Assembly (NCBI RefSeq): GCF_008831545.1
Contig: NZ_CP044523.1
Coordinates: 2,170,001-2,234,000, forward strand
Length of the DNA stretch: 64,000 nucleotides
Direction of reading: 5' to 3'
Origin: Halorussus halophilus
GTDB lineage: Archaea > Halobacteriota > Halobacteria > Halobacteriales > Haladaptataceae
Position numbers and translations under genes: made by a program
Notes under the pieces: generated by a model
Told to the model about the DNA's origin: nothing
Seen by the model: only the letters and a program-made list of their open reading frames with translations
The model's database searches: none
Part shown: positions 23,029 to 40,065 of the stretch, one piece after another
How positions within the stretch are numbered: position 1 is the first letter of the stretch
Layout of the letters: each line of letters begins with the position of its first letter

Positions 23029-23159
23029 CATTGCACATCGGGCACAGTAGTCCTCCTCAGTAAATAGCACTCCCAGATTCGTAGACGACCTTAGCAACCC
23101 TTTTACCTGATCAACTAAAATACGGGGATACGGGAACAGCACAGCCGCAAATCCGACGC

Positions 23160-23177
23160 GCCGTGAGATTTCACGGC
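23160..23177 (+). promoter_or_regulatory. Inverted repeat in the leader of the uS15 operon
   Basis: A gccgtga / tcacggc stem of 7 bp with a 4-base loop, about 95 bases before the uS15 start. A T-rich block (cttttacc, about 23099) upstream could be the promoter, which would leave this hairpin in a 5' leader. A regulatory role is only a possibility. Confidence 0.3.
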
Positions 23178-23272
23178 TTGGGATTGCGGACGTGCATCGC
23201 GTCTACCCGACGCACCAGCACGCAGACTCTCTCAGCGTCACGAGCGGTCTGTGCAGTTCCAATTCATCAACT

Positions 23273-26328: not shown

Positions 26329-26533
26329 AGTCGGGGTTCAGAGTGGCAGGGATTTAGGTAGTGCGATAACTCCGAGAATCTGGGAATCGACTAGGAGAGG
26401 GGTCGTTTTGTGGATTGGATTCCGAATTTGGATCTGAGCCAGCAATGGAGTCCAACGACTCCGTGAACCGCACTCAAACCGCGTTTCGCTCTCGGAGAAC
26501 CAAGTCCAACGAGTCTGTGAACCGCACGAGCGC

Positions 26534-26654
26534 CGAAACCTATGAGACCGCACCGCCACCGCATCAGCCACACCCACCCCACCCGACTGCGCGATTCATT
26601 TTTCGAAGACGCGACGCGTCGCGTCTTCGAAGTTCGTTGCTCGTCCCTCGCGCG
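26534..26654 (+). repeat. Element A core, homologous to element B at 39655-39778
   Basis: Shares with element B an ordered series of blocks: cgaaacc, gagaccgcaccgc, agccacac, ccgactgcgcga-tcattttt, a perfect palindrome, and ctc(g/a)tccctcgcgcg. The palindromes of the two copies differ in sequence and length (30 bp here, 25 there) but both are fully self-complementary. Confidence 0.75.
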
Positions 26655-26821
26655 GAATTGGCGCGACACGCTCCGCGGTCGCACCAGGGCGCGCCGTGTG
26701 TTAGTAGGTATCGCGGAGTTCCCCAAAGACAACCGGCGCGCGCGGCCGAATCCTCGTGATTCGGCCGTCCGTGCGAGGGATGAGCGAAGCGAATCGGCTG
26801 GGGAGGAGGGGGTGCGGTCTC
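26544..26821. repeat. 278-bp unit with perfect 11-bp terminal inverted repeats
   Basis: The left end gagaccgcacc (26544-26554) is the exact reverse complement of the right end ggtgcggtctc (26811-26821), and further blocks inside (cctcccc, gctcatccctcg) also match in inverted order. The layout resembles a miniature inverted-repeat element, but no flanking target-site duplication was recognised. Confidence 0.5.
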
Positions 26822-27015
26822 TCATTTGCACCGGGAGTAGTAGCTGTCGTAGTCGTAGAGTTCACTGCAATTGCGGTCTCAATAGCCGACTGGAATCGCG
26901 GTCGAGCTAGTCACTACGACCTTCGAATCAACTCTTCCGGAACCACCAAGCGTCTCCACTCGCTCTCCTAGACCTTCTTCGAATAACAAAACGTATCAAG
27001 GCGGTTGCCCACCCG

Positions 27016-39480: not shown

Positions 39481-39654
39481 ACCTGAACGTCCGGCCGGGC
39501 GCGTTCTAAACGTTGCGTTGCGGGGACGAGGTGGGTCGTGGGTTGTGGTAGCATGGTGTGTTTGTTGCTATTCGGTAGGGATTGCTGGTGGTTCTGTGAA
39601 TTCAATTGAGCTAGCTACAGTCACTGACACTGTACATGAGAAGCTAGCTACTCT

Positions 39655-39778
39655 CGAAACCGAGGAGAGACCGCACCGCACAGCACCGCCAGAGCCACAC
39701 ACCTCCCCAACCGACTGCGCGACTCATTTTTGGACGACGCGACGCGTCGTCCAAGTTGCGATGCTCATCCCTCGCGCG
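39655..39778 (+). repeat. Element B core, homologous to element A
   Basis: Same block order as element A (26534-26654), including gagaccgcaccgc, ccaaccgactgcgcga, tcattttt, a palindrome and ctcatccctcgcgcg. Its palindrome arms (ttggacgacgcg / cgcgtcgtccaa around a single A) differ from those of A but pair perfectly. Confidence 0.75.
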
Positions 39779-39829
39779 ACTTCGGCGAAACACGCTACGC
39801 CGACGGACAAACCGCGTCCGTCGAGGTCT

Positions 39830-39927
39830 CCGAAAATCGGAGATTTTCGGGATCAGGCGGGAGCGTTGCTCCCGCCGACCTCGCGGAACTTCGTTCCGCT
39901 CAGTCACGAAAGAGCTTCGCTCTTTCG
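39830..39927. repeat. Array of four triloop hairpins
   Basis: Stems of 9, 9, 7 and 9 bp at 39830-39850 (loop gga), 39856-39876 (loop gtt), 39883-39899 (loop ttc) and 39907-39927 (loop ttc), separated by 5-7 bases. All stems are perfect and each has a different sequence. Confidence 0.75.
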
Positions 39928-40065
39928 AACGATCACACTCACTTCGTTCGCGTGACCTCGGTTTCGCCAGCGCGCGCCGGATAGTTTTCTCAGCACCGAA
40001 GCCACCTGTTACCACTGCCCAGCCCTGCAAAACACACTTCACTTCGCTCTCTGAACAGTTGAGCG

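Follow-up and report, generated by a model that had tools for sequence, protein, structure and literature searches.

REPs are short imperfect hairpins of 20-40 bp that lie outside genes in tens of copies per genome, some of them in inverted pairs of fixed spacing, and that are kept vertically. The repeat family described here shares with the REP/REPIN and RAYT systems (PMC3116915, PMC2817692) the imperfect palindromes, the many extragenic copies, the inverted doublets of fixed spacing and the vertical maintenance; it differs from them in its larger unit, about 190 bp carrying two hairpins (P1 and P2) where a REP has 20-40 bp, in arms whose sequence is free and yet paired, and in copy-rich congeners that have no Y1/RAYT gene; a GTAG/CGTC tag was not noticed on the copies. 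Comparable as well are the PATEs known in Haloquadratum walsbyi, whose palindromes resemble those of IS605-type transposons (PMC3119063). PATEs and the present family are both haloarchaeal and noncoding, with palindromes near both ends and solo copies that show no evident terminal inverted repeat; unlike PATEs, however, the P1 and P2 arms vary freely here and Y1 genes are missing from copy-rich congeners. The SMRs of Haloquadratum (PMC3119063) are likewise around 100 bp, with up to 54 copies, a mode of mobilisation that is not known and no target duplication seen, but they have terminal inverted repeats, and copies of the same type are commonly more than 95% identical, whereas our copies are about 75-85% identical to the copy named B below. 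Another conserved haloarchaeal structure, the S15-Halobacteria leader RF03143, acts in cis as the leader of a single ribosomal protein gene, and cmscan gave no similarity between it and the element; this leader also occurs in the window at 23130-23195 (82.5 bits).

The window is a stretch of 64,000 nucleotides, bases 2170001-2234000 of the 3.64-Mb main contig in a Halorussus genome of 4.45 Mb. A sequence-only reading had described in it two noncoding elements, A and B, each with a palindrome whose arms differ between the two and stay fully paired. When the sequence was re-read, both were located where they had been placed (Table 1), with a perfect 30-bp palindrome in A (TTCGAAGACGCGACG followed by CGTCGCGTCTTCGAA) and 12-bp arms round a single A in B, and both do lie in unrelated spacers, being divergent promoter regions flanked by unrelated genes. 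With as many as 3 mismatches permitted, the GACTGCGCGAYTCATTTTT block has exactly 2 occurrences in the window, where shuffles lead one to expect 0.01. The observation stands, but the element is longer than proposed, since a P2 palindrome and then GCGCGCGCCG follow on the 3' side. The TCATTTTT motif, taken as a shared block, turned out to be a variable part adjoining the P1 tip and is absent as a block family-wide. In copy A, another sequence stands in place of the usual CTAGCTACTCCCG start. The P2 arms of copy B still pair, and a chain of perfect hairpins, such as GCGGAACTTCGTTCCGC and GAAAGAGCTTCGCTCTTTC, lies between them (39792-39960).

Table 1. Features of copies A and B in the window.
Feature	Position	Strand	Basis
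Copy A 5' block (CGAAACCTATGAGACCGCACCGCCACCGCATC)	26527..26564	+	Comparison of copies
Copy A core: C-rich strand, triplet CGA, P1 hairpin, triplet TTG, CTCGTCCCTCGCGCG	26565..26654	+	Covariance model R1, 89.3 bits, E 1.3e-16
Copy A P1 tip, perfect 30-bp palindrome	26602..26631	.	Sequence
Copy A P2 hairpin (TTGGCGCGAC...GGTCGCACCA) and terminal GGGCGCGCCG	26658..26696	+	Sequence; family layout
37-bp spacer between A and its tail-to-tail partner	26697..26733	.	GTGAAAATNCGCGAAAC-like centre typical of such spacers
Partner copy of A, P2 at 26744-26766, P1 much reduced	26734..26844	-	Sequence; weak R1 match 26770-26816, minus strand (L114 1255-1301)
Copy B 5' block, AGCTAGCTACTCTCG to GCACCGCCAG	39641..39691	+	Comparison of copies
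Copy B core: C-rich strand, triplet CGA, P1 hairpin, triplet ATG, CTCATCCCTCGCGCG	39692..39778	+	Covariance model R1, 94.2 bits, E 1.1e-17
Copy B P1 tip, 12-bp arms round one A	39730..39754	.	Sequence
Copy B P2, arms GGCGAAAC (39784-39791) and GTTTCGCC (39961-39968) ~170 bp apart, with terminal GCGCGCGCCG	39784..39979	+	Sequence
Copy B terminal GCGCGCGCCG	39970-39979	+	Sequence

Far from being the only two copies, A and B are members of a Halobacteria-wide family of dispersed intergenic repeats. B used as BLAST query gave about 43 significant matches in its own genome, and a covariance model built from 23 copies (R1) gave about 83 copies there at E<1e-6 and from 0 to 91 copies in each congener. 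Of those counted in the own genome, 81 are on the main contig (C1) and 2 on the 532-kb contig C2, where 11.8 were expected by length. The unit of about 190 bp consists of a C-rich 5' block, the P1 hairpin, a conserved link and the second variable hairpin, P2. In the orientation of the sequence-only reading it runs CTAGCTACTCCCG...GAGAGACCGCACCGCACAGCACCGC...GCCACACNCCTCCCCAACCGACT, the strand GCG-XTY-CTC, the variable P1 tip, the strand GCG-Y'TX'-CTC, RTCCCTCGCGCG, the variable P2 hairpin and GCGCGCGCCG. Several alternative modules form the 5' start among copies, and copies from other Halorussus species mostly have a short P1 tip, such as GGCCTTCGGCC, with the remainder of the element the same. 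Tail-to-tail partners were found at 14 own copies, across spacers mostly of 37-40 bp; in nine pairs read by eye the spacers measure 34-39 bp and have a GTGAAAATNCGCGAAAC-like centre. Most copies are solo, and inspection of these by eye for the marks of a MITE revealed neither terminal inverted repeats nor a consistent target duplication.

Other small modules accompany the element. One, about 50 bp long and containing two hairpins (CTGCGGG..CCGCAG and CAGCAAGACGC..GCGTCTTGCAAG), sits at one fixed position near the P1 3' strand in Halorussus and Haladaptatus (L025, L189, L194, L200, L212), and further hairpin modules lie between CTCATCC and CTCGCGCG; by analogy with the SMRs in Haloquadratum, these modules may perhaps be small palindromic repeats with palindromes as their targets. 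In several genera another dispersed module of spacers, GGGACTGAAAGGGGCCGCCCGGTCGCG ... GCGACCGCGAGCGGGCGGGGGCTTTCGAAG, is often found directly 5' of the element (flanks L008, L024, L061, L068, L072, L144, L154). Two contigs of metagenome-assembled genomes (L221, L235) have flanks 93% identical and identical P1 cores, and their sequences are wholly different past CTCRTCCCTC, directly after which a gene starts in L221, such that the breakpoint is the P1/P2 boundary.

The family is patchily distributed across Halobacteria. Among the matches listed, the core pattern occurs in Halorussus, Haladaptatus, Halosimplex, Haloarcula, Natrinema, Haloterrigena, Halococcus, Natronomonas, Halapricum, Halovenus, Halogranum, Salinarchaeum and several metagenome-assembled genomes; under stricter filters, 17 of the 106 genomes sampled from the class give a match, in most cases with a small number of copies. 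One congener, G009 (3.8 Mb, 99% complete), has zero matches and another, G014, has four. Viral carriage was considered and dropped, the exact pattern not being found in viral contigs. Rfam gave no match at A or B at the gathering threshold, copy A having merely a chance miRNA match (E 1.6), and no description of the element was found in the open-access literature searched; the family is apparently undescribed.

The sequence-only reading had predicted covariation from arms that differ and yet pair, and had staked this on further copies and on an excess of compensatory changes among them. Both were found, the compensatory changes being far above chance (0/500 shuffles). In 23 own copies there were 62 both-side-changed cells compared with 19.6 in shuffles, a signal lost when the 3' partners were slid, and in 107 alignment rows there were 234 compared with 73. 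The strongest covariation lies outside the palindrome first described, in the two triplets that flank P1, X-T-Y and Y'-T-X'. We tallied these alignment-free in 256 copies, with only the flanking strands fixed by the pattern; as the copies are related, the counts that follow are not independent events. X and X' are Watson-Crick paired in 249/256 (CG 96, TA 81, GC 69, AT 3; other 7) and Y and Y' in 247/256 (TA 95, CG 71, GC 49, AT 32; other 9), whereas the middle is T.T in 218 and G.T or T.G in 34, together 252/256, and Watson-Crick in 2. Three positions further out on each side there are constant C.T and T.C mismatches. What is kept is thus a helix of two-base-pair steps split by conserved mismatches every third base. 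A covarying direct repeat serving as a protein site was rejected: identical triplets are mainly self-pairing ones (GTC/GTC, TTA/TTA, CTG/CTG), and non-identical triplets still pair, so the constraint is pairing and not a direct repeat. A two-fold symmetric site read by a sequence-specific protein, the other possibility raised at the outset, finds no support, the arm letters varying freely among copies.

G-U pairs were found in 3/512 triplet cells and in 0-1 of the arm pairs, compared with 5/96 in a tRNA control; this near-absence argues against ordinary mRNA structure in a suggestive way only, the control being small and the arm scoring having penalised all mismatches alike. In energy folding the basal helix was weak on either strand, with neither favoured, and an RNA strand could not be read from A.C versus G.T mismatches in P2, where an apparent A.C excess was a loop artefact once the hairpins were inspected. 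The density of perfect 9-bp hairpins per kb is 2.71 in element spacers, compared with 0.39 for the remaining spacers and 0.11 for coding DNA.

Although spacers make up about 11% of the window, 185/189 copies in five species sit in them, which bears out the earlier claim that selection does not act on a coding frame. All spacer types and both orientations are occupied, commonly including divergent promoter spacers, and a gene that reads toward the element often has its stop codon 50-180 bp from the P2 end. A first impression of strong preference for one gene orientation faded with more copies to 59 vs 39 in co-directional spacers, a weak lean (p = 0.054). Orientation by replication strand was also discarded: strands are unclustered along the chromosome (runs z = 0.68), and thus there is no sign of lagging-strand targeting.

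At locus A, about 500 bp stand between two conserved promoters and are missing in relatives with the same divergent gene pair; most congeners keep this pair with recognisable promoters, the spacer is 688 bp here compared with 103-285 bp in nine of the relatives measured, and no copy reached a significant score at this position in any of the 17 relatives. The congeners G004 and G015 (~94% identical) have at least 7 positions in common, and among five species 12 independent sites, with flank identity down to ~69-75%, are shared with the orientation kept, compared with at most 1 where it is reversed; this asymmetry indicates that positions are inherited and rejects insertion hot spots. One shared site has the triplets GTC/GTC, CGT/ATG and CTT/ATG in different species, paired throughout, and another has GTC/GTC or CTT/ATG round nearly the same tip. 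A long ...ACGCG arm is carried by 55/76 own copies but by 1/113 copies in four congeners; among the 55 are all four own copies whose sites are clearly shared on the two flanks, whereas at a fifth shared site, L161/L315, the match has decayed. Even where species share a site, each genome has its own P1 arms, so the family undergoes concerted evolution. Over eight G004/G015 ortholog pairs, substitutions and gap columns come to 4.1% and 0.2% in the core, compared with 18.3% and 30% in other spacer DNA, 5.7% and 3.7% in coding DNA and 10.9% and 12.7% in P2; constraint on the core, frequent conversion to the family consensus, or both would give such low divergence.

The mechanism we hold most likely, with slightly less than even confidence, is that of a REP-like repeat read by its structure and spread and homogenised from copy to copy via a trans-acting factor. 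Such a putative factor would recognise the P1 hairpin in single-stranded (hairpin) form, reading the constant frame GCG-N-T-N-CTC, needing N and N' to be paired and ignoring the arm letters. Copies would spread and overwrite one another through transposition or gene conversion, the overwriting would renew the arms as perfect pairs, and the system would behave like a REP/REPIN population minus the known REP enzyme. The ~83 copies and the 0-91 across the genus, the C1/C2 bias, the gain at locus A and the spacer placement argue for it, as do the shared same-orientation sites, the genome-specific arms, the pairing of triplets with a mismatched middle and the conservation of the core. Against it, no mobilising enzyme was found, Y1 transposases being absent from four copy-rich congeners, the strands are unclustered, no exact empty site or target duplication was defined, and the core stays conserved at its sites, something that a selfish insertion in decay would show only with frequent conversion. 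Conservation among orthologs supports a constraint on the core, but the selection on a hairpin that the sequence-only reading had proposed is not the sole reading: with arms homogenised per genome and G-U almost absent, arm-to-arm or copy-to-copy DNA transfer may add to the perfect pairing.

Second to this mechanism comes a putative structured RNA (a 3'-UTR, terminator, processing element or small RNA) that selection on RNA folding would keep, which we judge rather unlikely and yet a serious rival. Covariation this strong would be expected of it, and the frequent distance from the P2 end to a stop codon, the weak lean in co-directional spacers and several G004/G015 ortholog pairs, in which the stretch from stop to element is conserved and the sequence past the CTAGCTAC end has diverged, point the same way; however, both orientations and divergent promoter spacers are common, A and B included, G-U pairs are scarce, the basal helix is weak on both strands, Rfam is without a match, and one congener has zero copies and another nearly none. 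An empty congener also tells against the element being double-stranded or cruciform DNA to which a protein of chromosome organisation or topology would bind (nucleoid protein, topoisomerase, SMC loader), an explanation we consider improbable despite the strong chromosome bias (81 vs 2 copies), the dispersal without strand pattern and the fixed spacing of inverted pairs: arm letters are free to vary, and conserved mismatches at every third base arise only in folded strands.

Neutral mending of palindromes, in which hairpin template switching would copy arm to arm and keep pairing without structural selection, is less probable still. It would account for strict Watson-Crick pairing without G-U, for a compensatory P2 indel between close species (L148/L143) and for the excess of perfect hairpins over shuffles in other spacers too (9 vs 0-1), but it would also erase the conserved T.T, C.T and T.C mismatches, and it must face a density of perfect hairpins per kb 7 times higher in element spacers than in other spacers and a core conserved among orthologs. 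The least probable origin, and a very improbable one, is that the copies are ends of an IS200/IS605-type element (PATE) or RAYT-driven REPs, however well imperfect, intergenic, multicopy hairpins and the PATEs known in Haloquadratum (PMC3119063) would fit it. The own genome has two Y1 transposase genes (PF01797), both on contig C3, and an R1 scan of the 3.3-kb loci round them gave no copy; PF01797 was not found in G001, G002, G003 and G011, which have 48-91 copies each. As Y1 is absent from copy-rich congeners, RAYT or IS200 enzymes cannot be the general carrier today, and current mobilisation by them is contradicted.

It is conceivable, if rather doubtful, that the family is a new archaeal repeat system, recognised not by sequence but through a hairpin with mismatches, in which two GCG-N-T-N-CTC strands are fixed and pairing is required at their free positions, with spread and homogenisation independent of Y1 and with inherited copies conserved in place. 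A widespread part of haloarchaeal spacers is hereby made concrete, since a single model detects dozens of copies per genome, and the congeners G009 and G014, with no copies and four, offer a natural comparison for a carrier gene. The same inherited sites, with different yet paired arms in each species, are a clean natural test of palindrome upkeep, by which RNA selection, recognition of single-stranded DNA and copy-to-copy DNA transfer can be separated.
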